Of a stretch of DNA of 64,000 nucleotides, positions 81-14,651 are shown piece by piece (the stretch's first letter is position 1; each line of letters opens with the position of its first letter). The position numbers and the translations under genes are program-made. The stretch covers positions 2,449,501-2,513,500 of the forward strand of contig NZ_CP046176.1 of the NCBI RefSeq assembly GCF_013009555.1, read 5' to 3'. Source of the DNA: Phocaeicola dorei (lineage in GTDB: Bacteria; Bacteroidota; Bacteroidia; Bacteroidales; Bacteroidaceae). The notes beneath the pieces were generated by a model. That model made no database searches and was not told the origin of the DNA. It was given only the letters and a program-made list of their open reading frames with translations.

Positions 81-1145
81 TTATCTTCCGGTTATCGTTT
101 CTGCCGTCGGATTCTGCCGGTGCATCCTCCAGTTGGCTGTTGCCGCCTCCTTGCTCGTGTTGGCATAGCAGTATTCACAAAGATGGGGGCAAGTGTTGTA
201 CTCCCCGATATCCTTGGCGGTCATACAGCCGCAGGCGGCACGCTGGCCCGGGTCTTTCCTGTGGCTGCTGATGAAATACCTGTTGCCGGGTAGCAGAACC
301 GCACCGTAAGGCAGGTCATCCATGTCAGCAAATCCCGAAGACGGCATTTCTTGGATACTTGTTCCCAACGCCGCCATCAGGTTCTTGTCCCTCCATGCCA
401 GACGGGTTATCAGGTCGCCGTCTATGCAGCGGTTACGTGATATCCTATATTTCCCGAGGTCCAGATTCTCGCCGCAGGTGGCCAGTTCCAGGTTCCATCC
501 CTTGTTATGGTTCATCCGGGACAGTTTACCGGCGAACTCCTCCATCGCCACCTTGTCCCATTCCCGGTACGGGATGCCGCTGCCGTCCATATTGGCCTTG
601 ACCTTCCTGTAAGAGGATATGTCCGCGAAACTGAAAACCAGTTTCTCCGTGAAGCCGTGTATTTCCGTTCCGATACGTCCGACCTTTTCCAACAGGGTAT
701 CTATGGAGATGCTGTCCGTGAGTACCAGCGGGTCGAACCGCCAGATGACCGCCTCCTTTCCCAATGTTTCGGAAAGGGCCTTGAATGTTTCGATACGTTC
801 CTCCAACGGCGGCACGCCGGTTTCCAGTCCGTCCTCCCCGTAGTCGTTCAGCGTGAACTGGATATAGCATCCGATGCCTCTCTCTTTCAGGACGGGCAGG
901 TAGGGAAGCAGCGGTTTCGGGTTCTTCGACCAGAAGACGATGAATCGTGTGTTCCGGTAGGATACATAGCTCTTTTGCCCGTTGAAGGGGTTGTTCCATA
1001 CGGAATATCCGGTTTCGAGCCGGTGGAAGAACCAGTCCGCATAGAATGCGGGGATGTCGGTGCTCCGGCTTGCGGATATGATTTCCGGTGCCGGGACTTC
1101 CATTGTCCGGCCGTCTATATTGATAGTTGTTTTTTTCCAAGCCAT
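81..1145 (-). CDS. DUF1848 family protein
   Basis: The 354-residue product matches my memory of the DUF1848 family: an N-terminal block SRSTDIPAFY (residues 26-35), a WSKNP block near residue 73 and a cysteine-rich tail. The tail has Cys305, Cys307 and then a CxxxCxxC motif (Cys319, Cys323, Cys326), which suggests an iron-sulfur cluster like that of radical-SAM or photolyase-like repair enzymes. The reaction is unknown. There is no signal peptide, so it should be cytoplasmic. It is the last gene visible of the left-hand accessory block. The ATG at 1145 is followed by the conserved N-terminus. Confidence 0.85.
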   Translation of the reverse strand: MAWKKTTINIDGRTMEVPAPEIISASRSTDIPAFYADWFFHRLETGYSVWNNPFNGQKSYVSYRNTRFIVFWSKNPKPLLPYLPVLKERGIGCYIQFTLNDYGEDGLETGVPPLEERIETFKALSETLGKEAVIWRFDPLVLTDSISIDTLLEKVGRIGTEIHGFTEKLVFSFADISSYRKVKANMDGSGIPYREWDKVAMEEFAGKLSRMNHNKGWNLELATCGENLDLGKYRISRNRCIDGDLITRLAWRDKNLMAALGTSIQEMPSSGFADMDDLPYGAVLLPGNRYFISSHRKDPGQRAACGCMTAKDIGEYNTCPHLCEYCYANTSKEAATANWRMHRQNPTAETITGR

Positions 1146-1258: not shown

Positions 1259-2182
1259 TCAACCCACCGGAACGGCTTCCACGGTCTCCACCTCCTTCGG
1301 CAGGTGGGACAGCAGAAGTTCCGCCATCGCCCCGTTCTGCGGGATAAGGGCCGGAAAGTCCGTCTTCCCGGGCTTGTATATCTCTGTCGCTACATTGTAG
1401 AGGTCCCAGGCGGTAATCCGTTCCTTGGTCATGGCCAACTTCAGCACCTCTTCCGCGAACTGCGATATCTGTCCCTGGTTCAGGGGATAGGTTTCCACGG
1501 AGGATGAGAGGTTCCGGTCCGCACTGTCGTGGGAGACACGCAATGCCGTCAGCAGGCCTATGTACATGTATATTTCCTCCAGGGAGACAATCCTGCGTTT
1601 CAACCTCTGTATCCGTTCGATGTCCTCGTTCATGTTCACCTCGAAATTCGCCATCCAGCCGTCCACGGTGTCGAACACCTCTTCCATCGACACCTTCTTC
1701 TTTCCGTAGTTGCATACGCTCCGCTCGGGGGAAAGGATGCATTGGTTATGGCAGATTTTCACGCAGGGACCTATCGCCGCCTGCACCCCGTCCTGATGGT
1801 AGGCGACGACAAGCGTGGTCGTCAGCTCGTCGGTCTCCCAGTCCTTGATACGGATGGTGGTGAAGATGCGGCGGAGTATATGCGCTTCCACCGCCTTCTC
1901 CCCGTGGGTCTGTTCCACCTGCGGGAGTATGCTTACGCCGGGCTGTGTCTTGTTCCTGTTCTGCGCGGCGAAGATTTCCTCCACCTCGTAGTCGAGATTG
2001 TACTTCCCGCAGATATCCATCATGCGCTGGATGACCTGGTAATGGTAGATGCCCTGGACAGGGTTGTTGTAGATGTCGTTCTCCTTGTAGGTACGCTGAA
2101 GCGTCTCGAAGTCCATCACTTCAATTCCGTTCTTCTGGAAGTCAAACTGCTGTTGCTTTTCCAATACTGCCAAATTTGTCAT
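1259..2182 (-). CDS. DUF3871-like protein
   Basis: This 307-residue soluble protein has no signal peptide or membrane segment. Its N-terminal stretch (about residues 18-45, DFETLQRTYKEN followed by IYHY) and overall layout match the DUF3871 proteins I know from Bacteroides conjugative elements; function unknown. About residues 60-150 are beta-rich, with a CVKICHNQC segment near 140. The C-terminal half is helical. It stands alone in its transcription direction, 113 nt upstream of the DUF1848 gene. The family name is from memory and not checked. Confidence 0.75.
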   Translation of the reverse strand: MTNLAVLEKQQQFDFQKNGIEVMDFETLQRTYKENDIYNNPVQGIYHYQVIQRMMDICGKYNLDYEVEEIFAAQNRNKTQPGVSILPQVEQTHGEKAVEAHILRRIFTTIRIKDWETDELTTTLVVAYHQDGVQAAIGPCVKICHNQCILSPERSVCNYGKKKVSMEEVFDTVDGWMANFEVNMNEDIERIQRLKRRIVSLEEIYMYIGLLTALRVSHDSADRNLSSSVETYPLNQGQISQFAEEVLKLAMTKERITAWDLYNVATEIYKPGKTDFPALIPQNGAMAELLLSHLPKEVETVEAVPVG

Positions 2183-2240: not shown

Positions 2241-2531
2241 TCAGGTATGTATCTGCCACCCGTGGAACGGCTGCAATGTTACCGCAAACGACCTGTCCGG
2301 TATTCCGTGATAGAGCAGTCCGCCCACGATGCCGGTTCTTCCGTCGGGATAACGTTGCGTGAAGCCGAACGAGTACGGGGCATGGTCATAGTAGAGTGAT
2401 ATTTCACTGGGACAGTCGGGATTTTCCTCCCAGCTCTTCAACCGGTCCAGACATTTTTGGAGTGAGGTGTCGCCGATGGATTCGGCATAGCGCTTTACAT
2501 TCTCGAGATGTTCTTCATTCAGGATTTTCAT
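2241..2531 (-). CDS. DUF4120-like protein
   Basis: A 96-residue soluble protein that starts with a predicted helix (MKILNEEHLENVKRYAES) followed by a stretch rich in Tyr, Phe and Gly. The pattern matches DUF4120 proteins of Bacteroides mobile elements as I recall them; function unknown. Its ATG lies 80 nt downstream of the first folded intergenic element (2611-2733), so it may be controlled by that element as a 5' leader. No residues suggest an enzyme. Confidence 0.75.
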   Translation of the reverse strand: MKILNEEHLENVKRYAESIGDTSLQKCLDRLKSWEENPDCPSEISLYYDHAPYSFGFTQRYPDGRTGIVGGLLYHGIPDRSFAVTLQPFHGWQIHT

Positions 2532-2610
2532 GACTTTTATATTTTATCTGTTAAACACGCCCGGCTCCGGGAGCCGGTATTTTTTATTTCTCGCCTGCCT
2601 GACTGTCCTG

Positions 2611-2733
2611 TGCCCGTATCCGGCAAGGTTTGGCGAAAGAAAATACCGCAGCCCCGGCGAGGATGATTTTCTTTCGGCCAACCCCGAAGGGGCCTGACCT
2701 TGCAGGGTACACGGGGCATGGGACTACCTTTGC
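2611..2733. repeat. Folded intergenic repeat, copy 1 of 3
   Basis: Read on the minus strand it begins GCAAAGGTAG. An outer stem follows (GCAAGGT pairing with ACCTTGC, extended by TGCCC...GGGCA arms), then a small hairpin CCCCTTCGGGG and an inner stem GAAAGAAAAT/ATTTTCTTTC. The conserved apical sequence ATCATCCTCGCC sits inside the inner stem. Copies at 9372 and 14458 keep the same fold and apical bases while the stem bases differ. On the plus strand, TACCTTTG at 2725-2732 matches the Bacteroides -7 box. It could be a leader RNA of the minus-strand gene or a plus-strand promoter element. Confidence 0.75.
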
Positions 2734-2833
2734 AGGGTGGGAAATAAAATATACACCCATGTCCTTATGAATCATTGGGGGCGGTCTCCGTTTTTATGGC
2801 GGGAACAGTCCCGTGTCAGACCATCCCCTCTGT

Positions 2834-3151
2834 TTACCGGGCAGTATCCCGTATCATTTCCTCCTCGCTTGTCTCTCCTTGCAGGAAGGAGAGCAGGCGC
2901 CGGAAAAACAGTTCCGGGCAATCCGTCCCGGTCTGGAAACCCGCCCCGTCCCTGACCGCACAAACGGCAAACCGTCCCAACCCAAGGCTTTGCGATGGAG
3001 GTACGATATGAAAAGAGAGATTGCCCGTGGCGTTTATATGCAGTCCACGGCGGTAAGAATAGAATGTATTCGGCTCGCCGTTGTCTGTTTCAAGGGTCAC
3101 TCTTTTATAGCCTTTTGTTTTCAACAACTTTATCAATTCTGAATTTTTCAT
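2834..3151 (-). CDS. Hypothetical protein of the mobile block
   Basis: A 105-residue protein starting MKNSELIKLLKTKGYKRV, a helix followed by a beta hairpin (RVTLETDNGEPNTFYSYRRGLHI). This opening resembles small HicA-like or DNA-binding folds, but I cannot assign a family. The C-terminal half may be less constrained. It lies downstream of two other unrecognised genes on the same strand with 14-nt spacing, so it is probably co-transcribed with them. No signal peptide or membrane segment. Confidence 0.55.
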   Translation of the reverse strand: MKNSELIKLLKTKGYKRVTLETDNGEPNTFYSYRRGLHINATGNLSFHIVPPSQSLGLGRFAVCAVRDGAGFQTGTDCPELFFRRLLSFLQGETSEEEMIRDTAR

Positions 3152-3165
3152 ATCGGATTGTATGA

Positions 3166-3711
3166 TTATGTTTCTGATTGTATATGATTCTCTTCTGAAA
3201 GGCAGACGGTCCTGTGTGCCTGTACCGCATTCCGTATTCTCTCCGACAGCATGGTATAATTCTCCTGTCTGGTTTGTAGCTTGATCCGGAATTTCATCAG
3301 CTCTTCATCACTCTCTTCGTCAAAGAAAAGGTTGTTCCGCCTCTGGTATTCGATATACTTCGTTTCCTTCCGCCTCGCGATGCTTATCTGTGCTTTGGCC
3401 GCGGCCAGTTTCATCAGACAGGAGTTGAAGTCTGTCCTCAATCCGGTGCGCTTGTCATAATAGCTGTAATAGGTATTGATTTGCCTTTTGGGGTACAGGC
3501 ACTGCAACCGGGCTTCACGCCAGCGGATTACCCAGCGATGGCGTTCATGCAGATCCCGTGGAAGGTCATACGAATGAAGCCGGACTGGATTGCCGGCTTC
3601 ATCCTTGTATTCGATGGAAATATATACCCAGCGTTCGATCTGTAATTCCCGCTCGGCCCGTGCCAGCTCTTTGGCGTATCCCCACCAGTCATCTATCCGT
3701 TCCTGTGCCAT
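3166..3711 (-). CDS. Hypothetical protein, helical
   Basis: A 181-residue soluble protein, mostly predicted helix and rich in Arg, Glu and Tyr. Residues 1-30 form an amphipathic helix (DDWWGYAKELARAERELQIE). The central part is basic (HERHRWVIRWREARLQ) and a long C-terminal helix contains RKETKYIEYQRR. I recognise no family. It is 11 nt downstream of the next gene on the minus strand (3723-4433) and probably shares its transcript. The high charge could suit nucleic-acid or protein binding, but that is only a guess. Confidence 0.6.
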   Translation of the reverse strand: MAQERIDDWWGYAKELARAERELQIERWVYISIEYKDEAGNPVRLHSYDLPRDLHERHRWVIRWREARLQCLYPKRQINTYYSYYDKRTGLRTDFNSCLMKLAAAKAQISIARRKETKYIEYQRRNNLFFDEESDEELMKFRIKLQTRQENYTMLSERIRNAVQAHRTVCLSEENHIQSET

Positions 3712-3722
3712 ACCGGGATGGA

Positions 3723-4433
3723 TTATGCTTCGGAAAACGGTTCCAGGAACTTCAGGTAAGCGGCAATAGCCTTGTGGCAGCCGGAGAAATCAGGAGTACG
3801 GCAGCCGCGTTGCTTGCTATAACGGATACGTCCGGATTTATACAGTCCTTTCACATGGTGGGCCAACGTGCCTTTGGTCCGGATATGGATTTCAAAGCCG
3901 TCCCGCTTGGTAATCTCAAGAAAAATATCCGCTGTAATCTCATCCCCGTCCAGGAACTTTTGTTTCCCTTCATCAAGGGTCTGTTGCCATTTTGCTTCCT
4001 CCAGCCTGCGCTTCTCGTCCTCTTTCTCCCTCTGTTCCCGCCTCCTTTGTTCCTGCTTTTTCCGGTACGCTTCACGGGCTTGCAGCAAAGGAGCCGTATC
4101 GAGTCCGAGTCCTTCAAAGACACGGATGGACAAAAGGGTGATATAGTTCCCGTTTTCCGCGTCCCGAAGCGTATTCGTAATCCAGTTCCTGCAATAACCG
4201 GCGGCTTCTTCCCTATGGCCTTCTTTGCCAAGGGTTCTCCGTGAATATTGTCCGCAGGAGAAATACACGTTTTCAATCTTGCAGACCACATGGAAGCAGT
4301 CGTCATCTTCGTTCCCGTACTCGTTCTTTGCCGATAGCGAGGTATACACATTTTCAGCATACGCTTCCAGTTCCATATAAGGAGCAATGACGGTGTTCCC
4401 GTCAGATTTGTATTTCAATACTTTTGCTTTCAT
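3723..4433 (-). CDS. Hypothetical protein with central coiled coil
   Basis: A 236-residue cytoplasmic protein. The first 120 residues are mixed alpha/beta with two cysteines (CFHVVCKIENVYFSCG). Residues of roughly 120-160 are a strongly charged helix (YRKKQEQRRREQREKEDEKRR) that should form a coiled coil. The C-terminus is compact and basic and includes an HVKGLYKSGRIRYSKQRGC segment. No family recognised. It is the first gene of a three-gene minus-strand run (4433 down to 2834) with gaps of 11 and 14 nt. Confidence 0.65.
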   Translation of the reverse strand: MKAKVLKYKSDGNTVIAPYMELEAYAENVYTSLSAKNEYGNEDDDCFHVVCKIENVYFSCGQYSRRTLGKEGHREEAAGYCRNWITNTLRDAENGNYITLLSIRVFEGLGLDTAPLLQAREAYRKKQEQRRREQREKEDEKRRLEEAKWQQTLDEGKQKFLDGDEITADIFLEITKRDGFEIHIRTKGTLAHHVKGLYKSGRIRYSKQRGCRTPDFSGCHKAIAAYLKFLEPFSEA

Positions 4434-4477
4434 AAGTCATTCATGTTTTGACAGTTTGTACATATTTCATAAGTTTT

Positions 4478-5497
4478 TTAGTTGGTTTGTACCTGTCCTG
4501 CCTGCCATTGTTTATAGGCGGTGATAAACTCCTGCCGTTCCTGCTCCAGCCTTGCTTCCGTTTCGGGAGTGTACCCCAGAAGTTCTATGCACCCTCCGTT
4601 GTAACCGGTCAGCCTGCACTGCATCCCTGCCTCCGACAGCTTGTCGATCCGCTTTTGTGCGGTCTTGGCACTGGAATATTGTTTCGGCCAGAAGTAATGC
4701 TCGCCTTGCGACCCGTAGGTGTCCTCCCCGAGAACCAGTTTCCCGGAGTGTCTCAGGCTTTCGGAAAAGTCGAACCGTGCCTTGCCCAATGCCTGCCGTA
4801 TGGCTTTGTGGACAGCTCCTTCGGGATGCCTGAATGCTTCCGGCTGTTGTTCTCCGGTTTGCAGTTTAGGCAGTTCCACCTTGTAGGGTTGCCTGTAACT
4901 GCCTATGCCCAATGTCAGGTAGAAATTGGTATGGAAATAATCCGTCATTGCGTCGCTGTCATCGAAATTGTACGACATGACAAAGTCGCAGACATTCATC
5001 ATCACTTCCCTGGCACGGTCCGTAAGGTCGGGATTCCTTTCAATGTTATAGTGGTTGATGTTGTCCTGCACCTTGCCGGACTCTTTGGTGAACGCCTCAA
5101 AGTCCGCGCTCATCAGTTTGATATAGATGGAATGGTAGTTCTCCCGCCTGACGGAGAACTTGTATTTGGGATATGTTTCCTTGAGCCACGCACGGACCAG
5201 CTCCACAATTTCGGGGGCGTGTTGCCCCTTGTAGTTTCGGCCTTTCCAACGGTATTCGTTATACACGTACTCGGTGTATTCCTTGGCTGTGGCCCCGGAA
5301 TAGTCGTATTCATATCCGGTGGAGCTGCCGGACACCCCCGTACAGTCCTTCCACTTCTCAAAAAGTCTTTCAAACTCGATGTTCACCTGCTGCATGACGG
5401 CAGTGTCACCACCCTTGTCCGGGTGGTGCTGCAATGCCAGACGGCGGTACTCCTTCTTCAAGTCCGCCAGGCTGTGTATGTTTTGAAAATAAGCCAT
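4478..5497 (-). CDS. J-domain protein with an LPD29-like region
   Basis: A 339-residue protein. Residues 8-40 form a short J-domain with the diagnostic HPD in QHHPDKGGD (about residues 24-32); HPD normally stimulates the ATPase of DnaK. There is no Gly/Phe linker or zinc-finger region, so it is not a DnaJ orthologue. The rest, with YSIYIKLMSADF-like strands near residue 125 and a repeated small alpha/beta unit at the C-terminus, resembles the large-polyvalent-protein domain LPD29 found on mobile elements. A role in recruiting host Hsp70 to an element protein is inference. The ATG at 5497 directly precedes the J-domain. Confidence 0.75.
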   Translation of the reverse strand: MAYFQNIHSLADLKKEYRRLALQHHPDKGGDTAVMQQVNIEFERLFEKWKDCTGVSGSSTGYEYDYSGATAKEYTEYVYNEYRWKGRNYKGQHAPEIVELVRAWLKETYPKYKFSVRRENYHSIYIKLMSADFEAFTKESGKVQDNINHYNIERNPDLTDRAREVMMNVCDFVMSYNFDDSDAMTDYFHTNFYLTLGIGSYRQPYKVELPKLQTGEQQPEAFRHPEGAVHKAIRQALGKARFDFSESLRHSGKLVLGEDTYGSQGEHYFWPKQYSSAKTAQKRIDKLSEAGMQCRLTGYNGGCIELLGYTPETEARLEQERQEFITAYKQWQAGQVQTN

Positions 5498-5509
5498 AAC
5501 CGTTAGTTT

Positions 5510-5719
5510 TTATGCCCCCGCGAGGCGTTGGATAAAGTATTCCTGATAGTCGGGGTCAAGACCGAGATTGCTGCAAGCAGCCTCTATATCGTTTTCCCTC
5601 AAATCGTCCGCGTCCTGCAATTCGTGCAGGTATTGAAGTTCGGAATTCAGATATTCCTGTGCTTCCACCTTGTTGCAACTGCATGAGTTACAGATTAGAT
5701 TGATAATGTTTCCTTGCAT
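5510..5719 (-). CDS. Small hypothetical protein (69 aa)
   Basis: A short acidic protein with Cys10, Cys13 and Cys15 near the N-terminus (NLICNSCSCNK), then helices. It lies 12 nt upstream of the J-domain gene on the same strand, so co-expression is likely. Family not recognised. The clean ATG and tight spacing support a real gene. Confidence 0.6.
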   Translation of the reverse strand: MQGNIINLICNSCSCNKVEAQEYLNSELQYLHELQDADDLRENDIEAACSNLGLDPDYQEYFIQRLAGA

Positions 5720-5760
5720 AATGTTTGCTTTTCAATGTTCATATTCCTGTTCCTGAAGCG

Positions 5761-5994
5761 TCATTCGTCACATATCAAGACGGCACGTTTCGCCAGTAAC
5801 CTCCGGTTGTCTTCCGAAAGTTCCATGTAAAATCGTTCCGCCGCACCATAGATGGATTTTTCCGCCTGTGCGTTCCATTTGTCCCAGAAGTGCCGGTACA
5901 TATCGCCGAACACGACCTTGCATTCCTCTATGCTCCAGACGTTCCACATATAATGGAAGAAGCTGGAGACCGCATTTTCCGCATGGTATTTCAT
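5761..5994 (-). CDS. Small hypothetical protein (77 aa)
   Basis: A 77-residue protein rich in Trp, Phe and Tyr (FFHYMWNVWSIEEC at the N-terminus) and ending in a helical segment LSEDNRRLLAKRAVL. Its ATG overlaps the stop codon of the upstream gene by 4 nt (5991-5994), so the two are translationally coupled. Family unknown. No signal peptide. Confidence 0.65.
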   Translation of the reverse strand: MKYHAENAVSSFFHYMWNVWSIEECKVVFGDMYRHFWDKWNAQAEKSIYGAAERFYMELSEDNRRLLAKRAVLICDE

Positions 5995-6584
5995 GATTCT
6001 TCAATTTCAGGTTCAACATCATCTTCGCTTTCCAATTGCCACCATACGGCATCATACATCCCGTGAAGCCAGTCGATGTTTCTCGTACCGAGTTCAAACG
6101 GGCTGTAACACTCCACTTTGTCACCGCTTTCCTTCTCCTCGGCAAGAACGGTCAGGCTGTTTTCCGTTACCCGAAGTCCTGTTACCATACATTCATACGG
6201 GTCACCGTTCTTACTGAACCATATCACCCAGACCGGGTCGTATCCATCATCTTCAGAGAACCGTATCTCAGTCATGCAGTGGGCATGGAGTAACTGCCGT
6301 ATCCCATTGATAATATCCTCGCGCAGCTCCTCGATTCTGCCGCTGAAGTCGATAGATGCCGGAGATTCTTTTCCGTTTCTTCGGATCACGGAAAGGAGCT
6401 GCATGTCGGGGTGTATTCCGAAATTCCAGTCCACCTCTTCATCATTGAGTGTAGTGTGGATATTACCACCCAGAACCAGTCCGCAGTCCTCGGACACCAT
6501 TCTTTTTGCTTCATCGCGGTCGTCAGCCGCTACCGTGTAGGTACCCTCGAAGGCATACCTTACTTTTACATCATACTTGTTCAT
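5991..6584 (-). CDS. Hypothetical acidic protein (197 aa)
   Basis: A soluble acidic protein. Residues 1-60 look like a strand-helix-strand unit (YDVKVRYAFEGTYTVAADDRDEAKRMV), typical of a small alpha/beta domain that many Bacteroides mobile-element proteins carry. The middle has a helical stretch (RIEELREDIINGIRQLLHAH) and a second beta-rich unit follows. It is coupled to the 77-residue gene downstream by a 4-nt overlap. No catalytic motif is visible and I do not recognise the family. Confidence 0.65.
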   Translation of the reverse strand: MNKYDVKVRYAFEGTYTVAADDRDEAKRMVSEDCGLVLGGNIHTTLNDEEVDWNFGIHPDMQLLSVIRRNGKESPASIDFSGRIEELREDIINGIRQLLHAHCMTEIRFSEDDGYDPVWVIWFSKNGDPYECMVTGLRVTENSLTVLAEEKESGDKVECYSPFELGTRNIDWLHGMYDAVWWQLESEDDVEPEIEES

Positions 6585-6630
6585 AATTTCATATTTTGAT
6601 TATTGATACTCGATTCATTGCTCCGGTGAA

Positions 6631-7128
6631 TCACCGGACATTCAACATCCTGCCAAAGGCAGGCGGATTGAGCCTGTAAAGTTCCGGCAGATTAAGCGTG
6701 ACCATCGGGTAGCTCACCCAACCGCTCCGGCGTCTGTAACCGGTATCTTCCGCCAGGTGGTTTGACAGGAGGAACTCCATGGCGTCAGGATTGTTGTTGA
6801 TGTCTATGAACGCCCTGTCCGGCAATGCGAATGCATGGTCATTCTCCAGATTGACCGTCAGGACCGTGTATAGCTCGTCTGTCTCCGGTTCTTTCAGGCA
6901 TAATGCCAACCAGCCGTTGTAGTACATTTCCGGCACAACTGACAAATGAAGGTCCTGATACAGGAAAGTCCTGCCGGAAAACGGACGGTTGCATTTCACG
7001 ATTTCAAAATCATCCTCTCCGGCAGTGAATGCCCTCATCGGGCAGGACACGTCGACGAAACATTCCCCATTCTTATGACAGAGATATTCTTTTCCTCCAT
7101 GGAGGATAATGGCAAATTCTGTATTCAT
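6631..7128 (-). CDS. DUF4313-like protein
   Basis: A 165-residue soluble protein. The pattern YYNGWLALCL... LTVNLEN ... FIDINNNP ... FLLSNHLAEDTG ... YPMV matches the beta-rich layout I remember for DUF4313, common on Bacteroides conjugative elements and of unknown function. It stands 46 nt upstream of the 197-residue gene. The family assignment is from memory and moderate. Confidence 0.65.
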   Translation of the reverse strand: MNTEFAIILHGGKEYLCHKNGECFVDVSCPMRAFTAGEDDFEIVKCNRPFSGRTFLYQDLHLSVVPEMYYNGWLALCLKEPETDELYTVLTVNLENDHAFALPDRAFIDINNNPDAMEFLLSNHLAEDTGYRRRSGWVSYPMVTLNLPELYRLNPPAFGRMLNVR

Positions 7129-7154
7129 ATTCTTAAATATTTAGATGTTGTTAA

Positions 7155-8096
7155 TCAAGCGGTTTGATTGGCGACCAAACCGACTGCATTTCCGAAGAAG
7201 GAGTCGTCCACGCCATATACATGCTGTACGGAGCAGTCATACTTGGAGCGTTCATCGTCCAGGCGGAAACGGAAACCGTTGCAGCCTTTGACCTCCAGTT
7301 TCAATCTCACATCCAGTTTCAGTTCCATTTCAAGAAGGCTTCCGCCACCATACATGGAACTGAACAGCCCGCAACAGTTCCCTTTGGGAATAATGACCTC
7401 TTTCAGGGAGAAGTTGGCATCGTACAGCTCTTTCAGGCTTACCCTGCTGATGTAGGTCAGCAGGTTCGCCCCGCAGCAGGAGTTGACAAGTTCCTCGTAG
7501 AATTGTTCGTAGGATACCTGTTCCTTGCCATCCCTGGATTTCCGGTTCGGGAAACGCCCGTAAACCTTGTAGCCGTGTCCCGTCAGCTGTTTCTTCACTT
7601 TCGACGGATTGAGGTTCAGGCTGTCTACCATGTCCCCGAAGTAAGATTCATCGTAACGGTAGCCGCCTTGCGACTCGAACCAGTTGGAATTGATGCAGTC
7701 GTAGTCGGAAAGCACCTCCACACGGATGGGGATGTCGTCCGTGTTCTTTATCAGCTCTTTCAGTACATCCGAGTCATTCCGGCGATAAATCTCGTCCCGG
7801 ATTTCCTCGTCGTGTTCCTCAAAGAAGTCATCTACCTCTTCCTCGTCAAAGCCATAGGATTCGGTACATTCATCCTTCAATTCTATGATTATGTCACGGA
7901 CGGACTCCCATTCCGCGTCACTGTACCATTCATCCGTGTTTTCCCATAGGCACTCGCAATTCCGCTTATCCAGACATTGCCGGATGATGTCAAGGTGGTT
8001 GTCGAGGTTGTCGTTATAATCCGTCCATACCAGCGTGTAGGACTGCTCCATGAGGGATTTAACGAAATCCAATGTAAGCGTTTTCTGTTCTTCCAT
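7155..8096 (-). CDS. Hypothetical acidic protein (313 aa)
   Basis: A 313-residue protein with a very acidic first half; the stretch DEEEVDDFFEEHDEEIRDE lies near residues 85-103. The second half is beta-rich and basic, with a Gly- and Cys-containing segment GNCCGLFSSMYGGG near residue 235. An acidic front could mimic nucleic acid, as in some anti-defence proteins, but there is no homology I can name and the idea is speculative. The ATG at 8096 follows a gap of about 90 nt from the next gene upstream. Confidence 0.6.
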   Translation of the reverse strand: MEEQKTLTLDFVKSLMEQSYTLVWTDYNDNLDNHLDIIRQCLDKRNCECLWENTDEWYSDAEWESVRDIIIELKDECTESYGFDEEEVDDFFEEHDEEIRDEIYRRNDSDVLKELIKNTDDIPIRVEVLSDYDCINSNWFESQGGYRYDESYFGDMVDSLNLNPSKVKKQLTGHGYKVYGRFPNRKSRDGKEQVSYEQFYEELVNSCCGANLLTYISRVSLKELYDANFSLKEVIIPKGNCCGLFSSMYGGGSLLEMELKLDVRLKLEVKGCNGFRFRLDDERSKYDCSVQHVYGVDDSFFGNAVGLVANQTA

Positions 8097-8187
8097 CTGT
8101 CTTTACCTGTGTACGGCAGGGTTCTTTTTCCCGTACATACCGTTATAAGTGACGGAAGCGGCTTTCCGGCCGCCTCCTTGTGATTTC

Positions 8188-8475
8188 CTATCCATACAGC
8201 TCTTTCACTATCCTGTCGTATTTGTCCTTTTCCATCTCCGTCTTCCGGTTGAAATGGAAATGCGCCGTGTACCTGTAGCCCGTCCTCGGTTCTCCACCGC
8301 ACTGCCGTATTGCCGTGTCGATGTCCCAGTCGATTTCACCGATGCCGAGCGATATGCCTGTGTCCCGTAACAGGCACCGGGCAAGCCGTAATGCGGAGTC
8401 CATCTTGTTTTCCCTGCGCAGCCTGTCGAAAGCCATCATGGCGATTTCCTTGTTTTCTATCGTTATTCTATCCAT
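8188..8475 (-). CDS. Small hypothetical protein (95 aa)
   Basis: I choose the ATG at 8475 (MDRITIENKEIAMMAFDRL) because the longer frame upstream runs back into the preceding gene and looks like a shadow there. The product is a soluble helical protein with a conserved-looking GEIDWDIDTAIRQCGG segment. It is 8 nt downstream of the next gene, so the two are probably one transcript. Family unknown. Confidence 0.6.
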   Translation of the reverse strand: MDRITIENKEIAMMAFDRLRRENKMDSALRLARCLLRDTGISLGIGEIDWDIDTAIRQCGGEPRTGYRYTAHFHFNRKTEMEKDKYDRIVKELYG

Positions 8476-8483
8476 ATTCCTCG

Positions 8484-8798
8484 TCAGTTGAATGTTAAAC
8501 TGTCCTTTTCTCTGTCGCGGCTTGCCAGCATACCGAAATGGATGCTGAATATGCGCTGTCTGAAGCAGACGGGCGAATTGTACTCCATGCGCTGCCACAG
8601 CGTGAAATGGTTGTCCGAGTAGGACCAGCGGAAATGTCCCGACAGGGAGCCGAAAGCGGGATTGACGTTCCTTCCGATAAGCCTCCTGTTCACATCCATG
8701 ATGTTGTTCGAGGTCAGGATGATGTTCAGGATCTCCACGAAGGCCATCTGCGTGAAGCAGTCCGTCGGGAATACCGGTCCGAGAAAATTGATGTTCAT
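8484..8798 (-). CDS. Hypothetical protein (104 aa)
   Basis: A 104-residue product beginning MNINFLGPVFPTDCFTQMAF if translation starts at 8798. That ATG lies just after the stop codon of the upstream gene (8812); the earlier in-frame ATGs lie inside that gene. Features are a helix (CFTQMAFVEILNIILTSNN) and a C-terminal Trp/Phe-rich segment (WSYSDNHFTLWQRMEYN). No family recognised. Confidence 0.6.
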   Translation of the reverse strand: MNINFLGPVFPTDCFTQMAFVEILNIILTSNNIMDVNRRLIGRNVNPAFGSLSGHFRWSYSDNHFTLWQRMEYNSPVCFRQRIFSIHFGMLASRDREKDSLTFN

Positions 8799-8811
8799 AA
8801 GCGTGTAATTT

Positions 8812-9309
8812 TTAATCGTAATTGTCATCGAATACCTCGAAACGGGGAATGCCCGTGTCGAAGCGGTTGCCTGATATGCCCGGAAAATAGAGCAGGCTGT
8901 CATCCCCGCTGTCCGGGCAGGGTTCATCGTCTATATAGGCTGTACTCCCGAAAAGTTCCAGGTAGTGCGCTACCAGCAGGTGGGGATCTTCCGTACCGAT
9001 GTCGTGCCCGCAACGGGCGCACCAGTCGAAAAAACAGCCCTTGTCGGGCTCCTCCAGCTGTTCCATCGCCTCCCTTATCTCGAAAAAGTTGGGACAGAGC
9101 CATTTCCGGTTGATAAGCGTATCCGGGATTTCCTCCCATCTCGTGTACCTGTATTCCGGTGCCTCCTCTTCGGGGAAGAGGTCGGAGCAGGTGCAAAGGA
9201 ATTCCCCCATGTCGCCGAAATCGGACATTTGCAGCAGGTTGTCCCTTTCCTGCCGGATGTCCATGAGATGCTGCGTGGTCACTGCCACTTCTGCCTGATT
9301 CAGGTCCAT
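8812..9309 (-). CDS. Hypothetical acidic protein (165 aa)
   Basis: A 165-residue acidic soluble protein. Residues 1-30 are helical (LNQAEVAVTTQHLMDIRQERDNLLQ). The middle has a CxxCG pair (FFDWCARCGHD) that could bind a metal with His residues nearby. Its ATG is 63 nt downstream of the second folded repeat (9372-9492). It heads a three-gene run (9309 to 8188) with short gaps. I recognise no family. Confidence 0.6.
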   Translation of the reverse strand: MDLNQAEVAVTTQHLMDIRQERDNLLQMSDFGDMGEFLCTCSDLFPEEEAPEYRYTRWEEIPDTLINRKWLCPNFFEIREAMEQLEEPDKGCFFDWCARCGHDIGTEDPHLLVAHYLELFGSTAYIDDEPCPDSGDDSLLYFPGISGNRFDTGIPRFEVFDDNYD

Positions 9310-9371
9310 AATCTTTCTGTTATAGTTAATGATGCGGAACCGGGGATTTCATTCCACAGGCTCTCAAAGGT

Positions 9372-9492
9372 CCGCGCCCCGGCTGTGCAGGGTTTTCCGG
9401 GGAAATACCGGAGCCTCCGGCGAGGATGATTTCTCCGGAAACCGCTTGCGGCGTGACCTTGCACTGCCGATAAGGGTGCGGGCTACCTTTGC
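9372..9492. repeat. Folded intergenic repeat, copy 2 of 3
   Basis: Same layout as copies 1 and 3. On the minus strand it reads GGCAAAGGTAGCC, then an outer stem (GTGCAAGGT with ACCCTGCAC), a hairpin CCGCAAGCGG, and an inner stem TTTCCGGAGAAAT/ATTTCCCCGGAAA enclosing CATCCTCGCCGG. The inner stem has different bases from copy 1 yet still pairs, which is compensatory change. On the plus strand TACCTTTG is at 9484-9491. The downstream minus gene starts 63 nt away. Confidence 0.75.
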
Positions 9493-9532
9493 CTGTGGAA
9501 TGGAATCTGCGGTTACTCATGTTTTTTCACTT

Positions 9533-12500
9533 TTAGCTTGTTATACGCTGGCTTCCCCAGCTGATGTGTATCTTGCCCTCCATGTCACGTTCCCTGACCA
9601 GCAGGCTCTCGATGACGGACATAGTGACGTCGAATTCCTCAAAGATTTCCGACTGCTCCTTCACCTCGCCGCTCTTGATGAACTCGTTCAGCCGTTCCTT
9701 GGTAAGTACCAGCGCCATCAGGTTCTGCTCCACGGAATCCTTGTAGGTGACGTAATGCACGTCCTTCAGATCCTTGGAGTCGAGGCGTATGAAACGGAAG
9801 TAGAACTGTTCCATCTTCGGGATGTTCCATTGGAGCGATTCCAGTATCACGTCGTTGCAGGTGGGGATGTTCACCGAACTGCTCAGGCTCTGCTGCGTGC
9901 AGACCAGTATGCCGTTTACGGTGGAGTCGAATTCGGTCACGATGCCCTGCCGTTTCTTGAACGCCACGTCGCCCTTGACCACGAACAGCGGACGTTCCGG
10001 AAAGCGTTCGCGAAGGTGGCTCTCGTACAGGTCGAATGAAGCGATGGAGGTACAGCCCACAGCCACCTTGCCGGGAATCCTCCGTATCAGCCTCTCGATG
10101 TATCTTGTCTTGTTCGGGATACCGTCTCCCCGGTAGCCCTCTATCAGGTGCGGTACGGAGCAGGCCTTTATAAGCAGCTTGATCTGCCGCATGAGTCTTA
10201 GTCCGGCATCCTTCCTCGTGTCTCCCGTACTGTTGTAATACAGTTCGCAGATACGGCAGAACTCCTCGATGATGACACGGTAAACCTCGTGCTCGCCTTC
10301 GGACGGACTGACGGTGTGGGTGCGTATCCTGTACTTCTCTCCGGCAAAGTCCCTGAACTTGCGGGTGATGATGGTCTTGCCGATAAGTTCAGCCAGTTCC
10401 TCCTTGTTGTACACGTCCTGGTTCTGCTTCTCGATGCCGAACACGGTGGATTTTCCGGGACAGTGGCAGGCACGGAAAAGCACATGTCCCCTGAAGGCGG
10501 GGAACGGCTCGCCGTAGTGCGGATTCCGGTCTTCCTCTATCTCCTTGTCCTTGTTCTCGTGATATATCCGGTCACACCAGCAAATCATATTGACGGAGTT
10601 GTTGTAAAGCAACTCGAACTGGCTGTAAAGCTCCGCGATATTGTTACGCGTGGTCGTGCCCGTGTCGAGTATCTTGTATTTGAGACGGCGGAAGAGGCTG
10701 AGTATATGCCTTGTCCGCTGTGAGGACGGGTTGGTAATCTCATCGGATTCGTCGAAAACCAGGCAGATTTTCCCGGACGTGCGTCTGACAAATCCGGCCA
10801 TCCCGCGTTTCAGTTTGGAGAGCATGGAGGTGGAAAGGATGAGAAACACGCCATCCGGTACCGTTTCAAGGTCGGCATTGCTCCGTACTACACGGAACTT
10901 TTCCCAGTTCATGGCCAGGAAGGGTATCCATGTCATGTTGGTGGCGATGGCCGGAGCCAGTATCACCACATTGCGTACCTTACGGAATTTGAGCAGGTAT
11001 TTGGCGCGGTGGTAGACTGCCGCCGTCTTGCCGGAGCCTTGCTGCCAGTTCAGCAGCGCATGGCGTTTCTGTAAGACAAGGTTCAGGTCGTGCTTCTGGA
11101 GCGGGGTGAACTCGCAAGTGTCTCCGTCCTTGTTGATGAAGGTCGTGCGGTCGAGGTATTCGGCCAGGTGCGGGTCGGGCTTCATGTCGGCAAACGGCCG
11201 GTTCTGGATTTCGTATTGCCTGCGCTTCTTGCGTATCAGCTTTTCTGCCGCACGTATCTGCCGCATATTCTCCTCTGTCGGAAATTCCGGCATGGGCAGT
11301 ACGGAACGTTCCAGGACAAGGTCGTTGATGCCTGCCGCCTTGTGCGGTACCTTATCCAACAGCCGTGGGGCGTATTGTTTCAGTTTGAACCCGTAGGAGG
11401 TTTTCACCAGGGCGACCTCCTTGCGCGGTACTACATTCTGCATGGTGATATACCTGCGGATGATACCGAGCACCTTACCCGTGGTCAGCTGCTTCTTCTC
11501 CCATTGCTTTATCTGCTCTTGTGTGGCACTTTCAGGCGGCTTCTGGTTGCGGAATTTCGTGACCAACGCTTCCGCCTTGTCAATGTGCCTGTTCAGCTTG
11601 GTGTGGGCTTTCAACTCGTACATGTACTTGGCGAGCTTGTACTCGAACACTTCCAGTTCCTCCTTGTCGATCCGGTTGGTCTCGCGCATCAGGTCGAGGC
11701 GCAGCCTGTGCTTCATCTGCCTTGCCTCATGGATGCGATCTTTCAACTCAGTCATGGAGATGAACTCCTCCGCGTTGTAGGCCTGCATTTCGATATGCAG
11801 CGACTTGCGCAGGAATACCATGATTTTCGTATGGAAGTTGTGTACCCCGACAGAGGAGAAGGCAGCCGGGTTCAGTCTTGTCTGGCCGATAAAGGAAAAG
11901 TTGTCGTTGACATTCGCGACCCGGGTCTTTTCCCAGAACTCGCTTTGCATGAACGAGCAGGGTACAATGACCATCAGGATGCCTGCCGGGTTAAGCACGT
12001 CGTAGGCTTTGTCCAGATAATATTCCTGTGATAATTTGTAGTCGAACTTGAGATTGAAAGGAGGGTTGCCGATGATGATGTCGAAGCGTTGCTCCGGATC
12101 GTATTGGCGGATGTCGCATTTCTCGATATGGGCGTCCGGATAGAGATACTTTGCGACGGCCACCGCCTTGCCGTCGATGTCAAAGCCGTAGACGTTGTGC
12201 CGGTTCGGCAGGTGGTTGAAGAAATTGCCCATGCCGCAGCACATGTCGAGTATCATCTCGGAAGAGGTCGGGGACAACATATCCGCCATATCCCTGCACA
12301 CTTCATGCGGGGTGAAGAACTGTCCCATCTCGAACTCCTTCTTCGCCTCCGCATACTCGTTGTAGTTGGCAAAGTCGGACTGCCGCAGGTTGTGCAACCC
12401 GCCGATGCCGGTATAACAGTTGTAGATGCTTTCCGCCGGTATAAGGTCCTTGCCGGAGTCTATGGAGAAAAGTATCTTTTCGTTGACCTCGGCCCGCCTG

Positions 12501-12535
12501 TCATGCGGTATCTGTTGGGGTATGATGGCATACAT
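9533..12535 (-). CDS. N6-adenine methyltransferase fused to a DEAD/SNF2-type helicase
   Basis: The 1000-residue protein has an N-terminal class I methyltransferase: GQFFTP at 71-76, SAM-binding DMCCGMGNFF at 97-106 and catalytic NPPF at 157-160 (N6-adenine type). A helical linker of about 200 residues follows. The C-terminal helicase has Walker A QGSGKT at 499-504 and Walker B DESDEI at 595-600, then helicase motifs. No nuclease motif is seen, so it is not an obvious restriction enzyme. Similar proteins are recurrent cargo of Bacteroides conjugative elements. A role in protecting or replicating element DNA is inference. A terminator lies between its start and the upstream gene, so it has its own promoter. 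Confidence 0.85.
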   Translation of the reverse strand: MYAIIPQQIPHDRRAEVNEKILFSIDSGKDLIPAESIYNCYTGIGGLHNLRQSDFANYNEYAEAKKEFEMGQFFTPHEVCRDMADMLSPTSSEMILDMCCGMGNFFNHLPNRHNVYGFDIDGKAVAVAKYLYPDAHIEKCDIRQYDPEQRFDIIIGNPPFNLKFDYKLSQEYYLDKAYDVLNPAGILMVIVPCSFMQSEFWEKTRVANVNDNFSFIGQTRLNPAAFSSVGVHNFHTKIMVFLRKSLHIEMQAYNAEEFISMTELKDRIHEARQMKHRLRLDLMRETNRIDKEELEVFEYKLAKYMYELKAHTKLNRHIDKAEALVTKFRNQKPPESATQEQIKQWEKKQLTTGKVLGIIRRYITMQNVVPRKEVALVKTSYGFKLKQYAPRLLDKVPHKAAGINDLVLERSVLPMPEFPTEENMRQIRAAEKLIRKKRRQYEIQNRPFADMKPDPHLAEYLDRTTFINKDGDTCEFTPLQKHDLNLVLQKRHALLNWQQGSGKTAAVYHRAKYLLKFRKVRNVVILAPAIATNMTWIPFLAMNWEKFRVVRSNADLETVPDGVFLILSTSMLSKLKRGMAGFVRRTSGKICLVFDESDEITNPSSQRTRHILSLFRRLKYKILDTGTTTRNNIAELYSQFELLYNNSVNMICWCDRIYHENKDKEIEEDRNPHYGEPFPAFRGHVLFRACHCPGKSTVFGIEKQNQDVYNKEELAELIGKTIITRKFRDFAGEKYRIRTHTVSPSEGEHEVYRVIIEEFCRICELYYNSTGDTRKDAGLRLMRQIKLLIKACSVPHLIEGYRGDGIPNKTRYIERLIRRIPGKVAVGCTSIASFDLYESHLRERFPERPLFVVKGDVAFKKRQGIVTEFDSTVNGILVCTQQSLSSSVNIPTCNDVILESLQWNIPKMEQFYFRFIRLDSKDLKDVHYVTYKDSVEQNLMALVLTKERLNEFIKSGEVKEQSEIFEEFDVTMSVIESLLVRERDMEGKIHISWGSQRITS

Positions 12536-12567
12536 GGTTTTATCTGTTGTTTACGGTTGGAAATGAA

Positions 12568-12599
12568 AACACCCCGCAAGGATGCCTTACGGGGTGTTG
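12568..12599 (-). terminator. Intrinsic terminator
   Basis: On the minus strand ACACCCCGTAAGG pairs with CCTTGCGGGGTGT (one mismatch), followed by TTTT. It lies between the stop of the 312-residue gene and the start of the methyltransferase-helicase gene. Confidence 0.75.
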
Positions 12600-12616
12600 T
12601 GAAATTCTTCTCATGG

Positions 12617-13555
12617 TCAGTTCTCTTGTAACGTGATTTCATTCAGGCGGAGACGTTTGAAACAGCTCTCGGCTGCCGTACTGTCCTTGAACTTGACATC
12701 TATACGCCCGTTCTTGTAGAACCTGACCTGTTCGGCGTTGGTGGTCGTGAGGTCGTACCAGTCATTGACGGATACATCGTTGCCATCGAAATGGATAATC
12801 ATTTTAGAATTGCCGCACAGTACATCATCTGCTCCGTAGGCGATACCCGCGCATAGGGTTTCCAGTTCTCCACCGTAGTTGTAATTGATTTTGCACCGTT
12901 GGTGGTATTGCATATAATAATCGTCGAAGCGGATGATTTCTGGAAAGACAATCTTGTCCTTCTTCAATTCCGGCTTGACCTTGCTCCAGCAGGAAGGCCT
13001 GACTGCTTTGGAAACTCTGGCAAGCAGCTCTTCCACCGCCGTTTCCCGGAAACTCTTGCCGCCCAAATGTTCGATAACCGCGTCCACGTATGTTTCATAG
13101 ACCGGACGGAAGCCCATGCGGAGCGTCCTTTCGTCTATCCTTTGTTCCGGTACCGATACGTTGTATGTCCTGTTGAAGTAGGCGATGATGCGGTTGGCAA
13201 AATTCGCGTTGGCGTTGCGGTTCTTGTCCACCAGGTCATTGAGGATATCGAACGGCTTGAACTCGTTGTGCGAGTAATCGTCCTTTCCGTTATTAAAGGA
13301 ATAGAAGTCACGCATGGAAACCTTGCCGTTGTCATTATAAGAAAAGTGCCGTTCCACCCGGTACTGTTCCGCCTCTTCCTTGAAGATGGCGTACCAGCGG
13401 TCTATCTGGTCAAGTGTCTTGTAAAGCATGTCCTGCTGGTTTTGGCAAAACTGGCGGTCTTGTTCCGTAATCTTATCCTCATTTCTCACTTCCACGCTCA
13501 GGATACCGGAAAGCAGGTCGGGAGCGCCACCGGTCTTGAATGTTGTTGTCTGCAT
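12617..13555 (-). CDS. Hypothetical protein (312 aa)
   Basis: A 312-residue soluble protein without signal peptide. The N-terminal half is helical and charged (QFCQNQQDMLYKTLDQIDRWYAIF split by charged turns), with RRHFSYNDNGKVSMRDFYSF-like beta segments near residue 75. The C-terminal third reads like an alpha/beta domain ending SCFKRLRLNEITLQ. Such proteins often sit next to the large methyltransferase-helicase on Bacteroides elements, but I cannot name the family. It is 19 nt downstream of the DUF4121-like gene and probably in its operon. Confidence 0.65.
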   Translation of the reverse strand: MQTTTFKTGGAPDLLSGILSVEVRNEDKITEQDRQFCQNQQDMLYKTLDQIDRWYAIFKEEAEQYRVERHFSYNDNGKVSMRDFYSFNNGKDDYSHNEFKPFDILNDLVDKNRNANANFANRIIAYFNRTYNVSVPEQRIDERTLRMGFRPVYETYVDAVIEHLGGKSFRETAVEELLARVSKAVRPSCWSKVKPELKKDKIVFPEIIRFDDYYMQYHQRCKINYNYGGELETLCAGIAYGADDVLCGNSKMIIHFDGNDVSVNDWYDLTTTNAEQVRFYKNGRIDVKFKDSTAAESCFKRLRLNEITLQEN

Positions 13556-13574
13556 ATCTGTTGGATTTTAAGTG

Positions 13575-14393
13575 TTAGGAATTTTGCGGTTTGATTCGGT
13601 GGAAATAGGTGATGTGCCGTTCCATGTCCTTGACAATCTTCACCCGTTCGGGATGGAAATCGAGTCTTCGCTCCACCGCCGGGGCATCAATCTTTTCCCA
13701 TTCCGATAGTGGCAGGAACACATATTCACGGTGGAAGCACCATACCACGATTTGTCGCTCCCAATTGCCTTGGAACACCGTTCCTTCGTAATCTTCCAAG
13801 AACTGTTGGAACCCGGCTTCATCCTGGAAGGCGGCATCATAACCCTGATAGAGGTTGCCTTCTTCCGATTCCTTTCTTTTGTGCAGGTAAAAACGGCGGT
13901 AGGTTTCTGTCGTGAAATCTCCATACAGCGGTTCGGGTTCATGATAGGACCACAAGGGGACGTTCGCTGTGAATGACACCGAACCGTTACCACATGCTCC
14001 ACAATGTCCCCAATCCTTGAATGAGCCTTCCGTCCACTTTACAAACTTCAGCTCTTTAGGGTCTATGGAATGGAAAGCACCTCCGCTGACACTCAGACGG
14101 ATACTTCCCGCTGTCGGCCACACGAAAGGTACATACGGCTGCTCGCATACGGAAAGCGAACCATTCCTTTCATCGTCTATAAGGGCATAGGGGTAATGAT
14201 CACCATGGCGGCTCACATAAACCAGCCTGTCACCGACCTGGGGTGTCATTTCCGAACGTGTCCGCTCGATGAGTTCCACATAACGGTTGGCCATATCCAC
14301 GTCTTCCTGTGTCAGCCTGTGTTCATGGTCGTATGAAACGTTCCGTTCCTTGAGCGTTTCGATACTGTACTTGTTCTTTGCCTTCTGTAACAT
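13575..14393 (-). CDS. DUF4121-like protein
   Basis: A 272-residue soluble protein that I associate with DUF4121, known from Bacteroides conjugative elements; function unknown. The N-terminus is basic and helical (KNKYSIETLKERNVSYDHEHR), followed by a beta-rich domain with VGDRLVYVSRHGDHYPYAL near residue 52 and a CGACGNGS cysteine pair near residue 132. The ATG at 14393 lies 65 nt downstream of the third folded repeat. It is the first gene of the minus-strand block. Confidence 0.7.
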   Translation of the reverse strand: MLQKAKNKYSIETLKERNVSYDHEHRLTQEDVDMANRYVELIERTRSEMTPQVGDRLVYVSRHGDHYPYALIDDERNGSLSVCEQPYVPFVWPTAGSIRLSVSGGAFHSIDPKELKFVKWTEGSFKDWGHCGACGNGSVSFTANVPLWSYHEPEPLYGDFTTETYRRFYLHKRKESEEGNLYQGYDAAFQDEAGFQQFLEDYEGTVFQGNWERQIVVWCFHREYVFLPLSEWEKIDAPAVERRLDFHPERVKIVKDMERHITYFHRIKPQNS

Positions 14394-14457
14394 AACATTT
14401 GATTTTTGTCAGTCCGGCTTTCGGGGCCGGAGTTCCCGTAACTACAGGCTTTAAAAG

Positions 14458-14581
14458 CTCGTGTTCCGTACATGCAAGGTTGGCGGGAAAAATACCGAAG
14501 CCCTCCGGGGCGAGGATGATTTTTCCACGGCACCCGAAGGGCTTGACCTTGCTTGTACGAAAGAACACGAGTTACCTTTGC
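14458..14581. repeat. Folded intergenic repeat, copy 3 of 3
   Basis: The copy with the longest outer stem: on the minus strand CTCGTGTTC, TCGTAC and GCAAGGT pair with ACCTTGC, GTACG and GAACACGAG across the element. The hairpin is CCCTTCGGG and the inner arms are GTGGAAAAAT and ATTTTTCCCGC, around CATCCTCGCC. On the plus strand TTG-N21-TACCTTTG (-7 box 14573-14580) points toward the Ntn-hydrolase gene. The downstream minus gene starts 65 nt away. Confidence 0.75.
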
Positions 14582-14651
14582 CTGTGAGTTACGGGGACTC
14601 GGCTACGGTATGGCGGTTATGCCCGATATGGATTATTTTTGAAATTACCGT

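Follow-up and report, generated by a model that had tools for sequence, protein, structure and literature searches.

The window examined here, a 64,000-nucleotide stretch of the Phocaeicola dorei genome (positions 2449501-2513500 of a single 5.63-Mb contig, NZ_CP046176.1), opens with the right end of an integrative and conjugative element (ICE). This segment extends from window position 1 to ~14.7 kb, and its genes are collinear with those of a second ICE of the same genome (58-83% protein identity for six gene pairs). It contains three copies of a hairpin element, located on the + strand at 2582..2749 (copy 1), 9338..9514 (copy 2), and 14425..14604 (copy 3, ~90 nt from the probable right end of the ICE). 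Each copy stands before a minus-strand gene and is likely a single-stranded DNA (ssDNA) promoter that acts during conjugation. The original prediction had described three copies at these places, and they were confirmed by DNA folding and by a covariance model (137.1, 136.9, and 148.6 bits, respectively). The conserved CGAGGATGATTT, which is the reverse complement of the apical motif first described, is found without mismatch on the + strand at 2658, 9421, and 14511; when up to one mismatch is allowed, the window holds five matches, versus a mean of 0.55 in shuffles. The similar distances noted between the left edges and the minus-strand ATGs at 2531, 9309, and 14393 also hold (80, 63, and 65 nt, measured from the edges first given). 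Those edges were drawn too tight: an additional base stem is present in each copy and extends it to the boundaries listed above. Also missed at first was TACCTTTGC, which is present on the + strand in all three 3' arms (2725, 9484, and 14573) and has four occurrences in the window (0.56 expected).

The DNA fold of copy 1, all on the + strand, consists of a base stem (2582-2598 with 2732-2749), a spacer stem (2605-2621 with 2705-2724), a −33 stem (2623-2629 with 2697-2703), an inner stem (2635-2644 with 2666-2675), and a GC hairpin (2682-2692). Its 3' arm carries CCTTGC, which includes a −33-like TTG (2698..2703), followed by the −7 box TACCTTTG (2725..2732), which lies within an internal loop. 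In copies 2 and 3, again on the + strand, the DNA fold places CCTTGC at 9457..9462 and 14547..14552, and the −7 box TACCTTTG is located at 9484..9491 and 14573..14580. The box is mostly paired in copy 2 and partly paired in copy 3, and adjoins a bulge in both. The conserved apical CGAGGATGAT occupies 2658..2667, 9421..9430, and 14511..14520 (+) in the three copies. The apex, as at window positions 14491-14520, carries AATACC and GAGGATGAT (GGAGAT in distant copies), which belong to the best-conserved bases of the element and are explained by no promoter part.

To follow the element beyond the window, a covariance model was built from 10 copies of the P. dorei genome. The model gives 18 hits at E 1e-3 in this genome, the last few of them weak. 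With stricter hit filters, hits were obtained in 36 of 121 sampled genomes of the family, covering 16 of 30 genera; across the phylum, with E 1e-6 as the cut-off, 10 of 296 sampled genomes have hits, and two other families of the class are represented. A scan of named genomes with an exact pattern returned at least 120 stretches. Among the 80 matches listed, the names are of Bacteroidales type (Bacteroides, Phocaeicola, Parabacteroides, Prevotella, Paraprevotella, Alistipes, Odoribacter, Barnesiella, Mediterranea, and others), except for two metagenome-assembled genomes labelled Clostridium/Clostridiales, labels that are perhaps wrong. The named-genome scan and IMG/VR together hold at least 160 elements in at least 137 loci. 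At least 21 of these loci are multi-copy, and among the matches listed all copies lie on one strand in 21 of 21. For the statistics below, 52 non-redundant copies (<80% identity) were taken from a pool of 233 (83 model hits and 150 pattern hits). A blastn search with copy 3 against 72,556 plasmid records, that of plasmid F included, gave no match at E 1e-5. In a phage collection, copy 1 was found in two unannotated 'Bacteriophage sp.' records (MT836551.1 and MT836639.1), and 17 IMG/VR stretches carry the element; some of these viral-labelled contigs may be pieces of ICEs. Tandem pairs of the element are frequent, with a spacing of about 0.56-0.66 kb, and in two of them (2338975/2339568 of the P. 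dorei genome and L071 10258/10835) the intervening open reading frame (ORF) encodes 78 and 96 amino acids.

Each window copy folds better than its shuffles on either strand (z of −4.0, −7.4, and −7.4 for copies 1-3 on the + strand; −3.4, −5.7, and −9.0 on the minus strand), and single folds therefore cannot tell which strand is the folded one. The inner arms proposed in the original prediction do pair in copies 1 and 2 (2635-2644 with 2666-2675 and 9394-9406 with 9429-9441), whereas the best fold of copy 3 uses another inner pairing; despite this alternative, the shared inner stem belongs to the consensus structure. In an alignment of 59 matches, 92.0% of the cells are paired and 27 of 34 pairs show changes on both sides, with the proviso that the rows were fitted to the structure of the model and so lean toward it. 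These rows come from 42 of 46 loci (L018, L066, L112, and L260 omitted), and one of them (L072 15710) is read from the reverse strand. The covariation score is 0.566, compared with 0.167 in shuffles (0 of 500 reach the observed value) and 0.063-0.106 when the pairing partners are slid. With the 10 starting copies alone, changes on both sides are observed in 19 of the 34 predicted pairs. The covariation is large in scale. The earlier description is supported in that the element is structured, conserved, and located in cis, its compensatory changes are real, and it is widespread on mobile elements. The Rfam comparison gave no match for the element: one tRNA is the only hit in the whole window at gathering score, and copy 3 has none at E up to 1.

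To identify the folding strand, each 5' arm was aligned to its own 3' arm with all mismatches scored equally. On the element strand, the one that bears the boxes, the stem mismatches of the 52 copies comprise 147 G.T and 43 A.C (p 1.7e-14); 37 copies have more G.T and 8 have more A.C. The same is observed for 41 copies picked by sequence pattern only, without the covariance model (G.T 128 vs A.C 36, p 2.7e-13; 27 copies rich in G.T and 7 in A.C). The balance of A.G and C.T leans the same way in the 52 copies (116 to 64), and in the pattern-only set it is not significant (74 to 56, p 0.14). Because a G.T on one strand is an A.C on the other, this asymmetry indicates selection on folding of the element strand and not of the mRNA strand. 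The folding strand is the element strand, which is opposite to the coding strand of the gene. The proposal that the element may be an RNA is therefore not supported for the gene strand, where an RNA predicts the opposite sign in both sets of copies. On the + strand, TAnnTTTG is not enriched before the 5' arm (6 of 49, vs a background of ~10%), so a start site for an RNA containing the hairpin is not evident.

The boxes of the 3' arm resemble a known promoter consensus. In the available text of PMC7366714, the primary sigma consensus of Bacteroidota is given as TAnnTTTG near −7 and TTTG near −33. Read along the element strand, the 3' arm presents CCTTGC, whose TTG corresponds to −33 and lies within a conserved CCTTGC/GCAAGG stem, and then TAnnTTTG at −7. 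In the 52 copies, TAnnTTTG is found 13-27 nt past the TTG motif exactly in 30, with one mismatch in 10, and with two mismatches in 2. In shuffled 3' arms, a one-mismatch box occurs in 1.8% and a two-mismatch box in 8.7%, and among the values listed there is no exact box. The other strand of the 5' arm, used as a control, gives 0 of 52 exact matches, 8 with one mismatch, and 14 with two; the 8 one-mismatch cases are probably copies in which the box is paired. A narrower version of the test yielded exact boxes in 24 of 43 copies, with 0 of 43 on the other strand and 0.9% in shuffles. The spacing between −33 and −7 is 20-23 nt in 34 of the 40 boxed copies (mode 22). Positions 3 and 4 of the box are variable while A2, T5, and G8 are invariant, as expected from the sigma consensus, a pattern that is supportive but not independent because the boxed copies were themselves selected by pattern. 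In the 40 boxed copies, the mean unpaired probability is 0.55 for T1, 0.60 for A2, 0.41-0.51 for positions 3-7, and 0.10 for the final G, and it is 0.05-0.18 over the four bases past the box. A base stem of at least 6 bp follows in 38 of 40. In these predicted folds, two stems flank a loop, and the box sits in this loop or next to it. Between the end of the box and the ATG, the gene strand has TAnnTTTG in just 3 of 45 cases, and this scarcity leaves no evident ordinary primary-sigma promoter for the genes there.

The relation of the element to the polarity of transfer was examined using relaxase genes and a motif resembling an origin of transfer (oriT). In 3 of 3 ICEs examined in the P. dorei genome, mobA is preceded by an inverted repeat and, after it, TATGTTCGCTTGAACA or a close variant, a layout like that of a MOBP oriT. 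In MOBP systems, the transferred strand is nicked 3' of this repeat. An earlier oriT pattern recovered 1 of the 3 own-genome sites, and another motif derived from these sites was used to search 28 genomes with at most two mismatches. The 93 elements of these 28 genomes served as the input, and G036:C103:70709 (-), a reverse reading of the hairpin at 70701, was omitted from both the relaxase and the motif counts. Within 120 kb of an oriT-like motif lie 42 of the 93 elements, and every one of these 42 shares the strand of its motif. The 24 sites involved are related by descent and hence not independent trials. On the leading side of the motif are 31 of the 42, with 17 of these 31 at a distance of 17-24 kb, one at 0.4 kb, and two at 2.4 kb. 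In L109 (G122:C1:107140-107602), two oriT-like motifs stand 63 bp apart and a co-stranded element follows after ~0.2-0.4 kb, the shortest distance observed between an oriT-like motif and an element. The element is also opposite in strand to the nearest relaxase gene of family PF03432 in 50 of 54 pairs within 40 kb and in 57 of 61 within 80 kb. Relaxases are typically located in the lagging region, according to the available text of PMC11541004, and the portion of PMC8136818 available offers no nic sequence for comparison. Taken together, the relaxase rule, the conserved motif 3' of an inverted repeat, and the general MOBP rule lead us to infer that the transferred strand (T-strand) is the element strand.

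The relaxase gene of the ICE in the window lies at 2352917-2354170 of the contig, on the minus strand. The assignment follows from an interruption: the gene series of this ICE is broken between traJ, which ends at 2374268, and the last third of traM, at 2445418. It appears that a large nested insertion (2374268-2445418) split the ICE and left only the C-terminal third of traM; the inserted DNA presumably carries a second gene set like a type IV secretion system together with fimbriae-like ORFs. The second ICE of the genome we take to run mobA, mobB, mobC, and traA onward to traJ, traM, traN, and traO, with the same leading genes, names assigned from ORF lists. Traits of the CTnDOT family were sought in the same way (mobABC, the traA-O order, RteA/RteB, and a tyrosine integrase), and these names are our assumed readings of ORFs, with the relaxase alone based on Pfam. 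A 10-mer shared near 2298024 and 2464190 is a weak hint of the ends of the ICE. Beside the mobC-like genes of three ICEs of this genome stands a further ORF (2349521-2351326, 5414829-5416634, and 4803223-4805028); the first two are 100% identical over 601 amino acids, and the third shares their first 45 residues. Its product presumably is a group II intron reverse transcriptase.

The excess of genes is confined to the left side of the element, as judged from both random places and the right side. In 45 of the 52 copies, an opposite-strand ORF of at least 50 amino acids begins no more than 260 nt from the 5' edge, compared with 354 of 590 random places in the same loci, and a same-strand ORF of this size is present on the 3' side in 35 of 52. 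For ORFs of at least 100 amino acids, the counts are 30 of 52 on the left, 209 of 590 at random, and 14 of 52 on the right. A Pfam scan covered 40 first genes outside the window, namely 30 of the 44 genes of the non-redundant set (11 of the 44 were not scanned) and 10 from other copies. A family was assigned to 18 of the 40, and the other 22 are without one. Single-stranded DNA-binding protein (SSB) is encoded at four loci (L107, L108, L111, and L116, which all belong to a single other family of the class), ArdA at three loci (L081, L085, and L090), and ArdC at one (L099). PcfK, DUF4121, DUF4326, and DUF6943 occur twice each, and a YspA-type SLOG protein and a phosphoribosyltransferase are also among the first genes.

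In the window, copy 1 is followed on the minus strand by a DUF4120 gene (2241..2531, PF13496), a gene with a weak DUF932 likeness below the Pfam cut-off (1259..2182), and a Pfam DUF1848 gene (81..1145). The first gene after copy 2 (8812..9309, minus strand) encodes 165 amino acids, was searched against NCBIfam only without a match, and is followed by more minus-strand genes. After copy 3 come, again on the minus strand, a DUF4121 gene (13575..14393, PF13497), a gene with no Pfam match (12617..13555), and a gene for a 1000-residue protein with N6-adenine methyltransferase and helicase domains by Pfam (9533..12535).

Based on the computed structure and its covariation, the folding strand, the box, the co-strandedness with the oriT-like motif, and the gene neighbourhood, we consider it likely that each element is an ssDNA promoter on the strand transferred in ICE conjugation. 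In the proposed mechanism, the + strand would enter the recipient as ssDNA and fold. The 3' arm would then act as the non-template strand of a primary-sigma promoter, with TTG and TAnnTTTG read from loop to base, and the 5' arm as its template. Transcription would begin in the base stem, immediately downstream of the box, and RNA polymerase would exit toward the 5' side of the same strand. There the unfolded DNA would template the minus-strand genes, which could thus be transcribed before second-strand synthesis. For copy 3, the start estimated from the DNA fold would be near 14443, ~50 nt upstream of the ATG. Once the ICE is integrated and double-stranded, the hairpin would be absent and the boxes would point away from the gene; for both reasons expression would be brief and limited to entry.

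Several points weigh against this promoter reading. The binding and use of the element by RNA polymerase, the start site, and the transient expression are predicted steps, and the nic and the identity of the T-strand are putative. No box within two mismatches is present in 10 of the 52 copies, and 2 more have one only at two mismatches. In their best fold, 22 of the 40 boxed copies have five or more of the eight box bases paired, and the positions 11-14 nt upstream of the box are equally unpaired (0.42-0.65) at bulges of the 3' arm, so the loop is not specific to the box. When the control regions of plasmids F and ColIb-P9 were folded, stable T-strand hairpins were obtained, and a regular-expression search of them found no −35/−10 pair; the yardstick is thus not reproduced at the level of boxes. 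The search for the oriT-like motif was loose, with 48 matches vs 23 for a reversed control pattern, and single sites may be due to chance. On the lagging side of the motif lie 11 of the 42 elements, copies for which a promoter of early expression has no need. The relaxase rule has 4 exceptions in 54 pairs: two adjoin relaxases of 303-310 amino acids and have an oriT-like motif on the element strand 2.4 kb away, and the other two are weak hits (47 and 36.8 bits). Finally, SSB, ArdA, and ArdC make up 8 of the 40 scanned first genes, only 4 of which are among the 30 from the non-redundant set (19 of these 30 are without a family), and the remaining 4 come from the ten further proteins, which were chosen after some of the starts had been seen.

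A more elaborate form of the promoter reading is offered tentatively, with clearly less confidence. The element may be a switch set by the state of the strand, its boxes firing left into the establishment genes when the ssDNA is folded and right, in the direction away from these genes, when the DNA is double-stranded; a dedicated factor would land on the apical AATACC/GAGGATGAT junction and open the hairpin out of SSB.

Among the alternatives, a single-strand initiation site fares best, although it is unlikely. The folded T-strand would be bound by RNA polymerase or primase to make primers for the second strand, and gene expression would be secondary. Such a site is favoured by the common strand of all 42 elements near a motif and also by the 11 copies on the lagging side. 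The F-plasmid hairpin Frpo is reportedly both a promoter and a primer site (Masai and Arai 1997, judged by title), which also favours an initiation site. A pure priming site, however, requires no adjacent gene, whereas the left-side ORF excess (45 of 52, against 60% of random places and 35 of 52 on the other side) and the presence of ssb, ardA, and ardC among the first genes are as a promoter would have them.

A structured leader RNA, acting as a regulator or attenuator at the 5' end of the mRNA of the minus-strand gene, would fit the similar distances to the ATG in the three window copies and the covariation. It is very improbable: the element strand has 147 G.T to 43 A.C mismatches, the reverse of what such an RNA would show, a gene-strand box is rare (3 of 45), and Rfam gave no match, grounds on which a gene-strand leader or a known RNA family was rejected. 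Equally improbable is an ordinary double-strand promoter that fires rightward from the + strand with the hairpin as operator. The regular linear −33/−7 spacing with its mode of 22 nt agrees with this arrangement, as does a same-strand ORF of at least 50 amino acids within 260 nt to the right in 58 of 83 copies. The right-hand rate is, however, near background (35 of 52, and 14 of 52 at the 100-residue threshold, vs 354 and 209 of 590), in the window copies 1 and 2 have the 3' ends of minus-strand genes to their right and copy 3 has the end of the ICE, and the folding-strand bias is left unexplained. As the sole function, it was rejected on the right-hand ORF rate; it may coexist with the ssDNA promoter as the double-strand state of the switch. 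Least probable of all are transposable-element ends or integration sites, a reading prompted by the place of copy 3 near the probable ICE end and by the likeness of the box to what we take to be the CTnDOT att (attachment site) core, GTAnnTTTGC, and rejected because several copies, among them copies 1 and 2 and the ones at 2348182 and 2367435, are inside the ICE, TA is preceded by C, C, and T in copies 1-3 and not by G, and the arms covary instead of keeping one sequence.

The ssDNA promoter as a kind is already known from plasmids of E. coli. In the available text of PMC9849209, Frpo1 and Frpo2 of plasmid F are likewise hairpins of the incoming strand, with boxes rebuilt by folding, upstream of leading genes such as ssb and psiB. 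Genes for SSB and antirestriction proteins belong to the leading regions of F and ColIb-P9, according to the same text and the plasmid records, and to the first genes described here. The F record has an antirestriction gene and a DUF932 gene in its leading region, and the window gene at 1259-2182 is weakly DUF932-like. In the ColIb-P9 record, ardA, psiB, and the gene of a MOBP relaxase share a strand, an arrangement that these ICEs have as well, and Frpo-like sequences are reported in its leading region (PMC9849209, as available). The differences from Frpo are equally clear: sigma-70 boxes in F versus TAnnTTTG and TTG here, a MOBF relaxase on a plasmid versus a PF03432 relaxase on an ICE, and an apical AATACC and GAGGATGAT that are common to the copies here, with no blastn match to F. 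ColIb-P9 also has single-strand initiation (ssi) sites dispersed before ardA and ssb; no sequence relation to them was seen in the blastn search with copy 3, and the sigma consensus is another. Rolling-circle plasmids have ssoA-type single-strand origins, folded ssDNA sites that are likewise recognised by RNA polymerase. These origins occur once per replicon and serve priming, whereas several elements are present per ICE here.

A search for Frpo-like sequences by Samuel et al. 2024 used −35 TTGACA, −10 TATAAT, and BLAST with five known sequences, as described in the available text of PMC11541004, and 'Bacteroid' is absent from the main text of that article. Judged by titles and the starts of abstracts, the papers listed in searches of open-licence literature, a scope that leaves most subscription papers and all preprints outside, describe no ssDNA promoters in Bacteroidota. 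As far as seen, then, what is new is the family, which has boxes of the Bacteroidota type and a fold of its own, and whose copy 3 matches no plasmid record. The published search used E. coli boxes (PMC11541004, in the part available) and would be likely to miss such a Bacteroidota family.

ICEs are important carriers of gene transfer among gut Bacteroidota, and to our knowledge little is known of how they become established on entry. If the ssDNA promoter reading is true, it would suggest that transcription of incoming ssDNA arose more than once or diverged beyond recognition, and it would point to the early genes of these ICEs, most of them of unknown function. The covariance model provides a signature for leading regions and the polarity of transfer in genomes.

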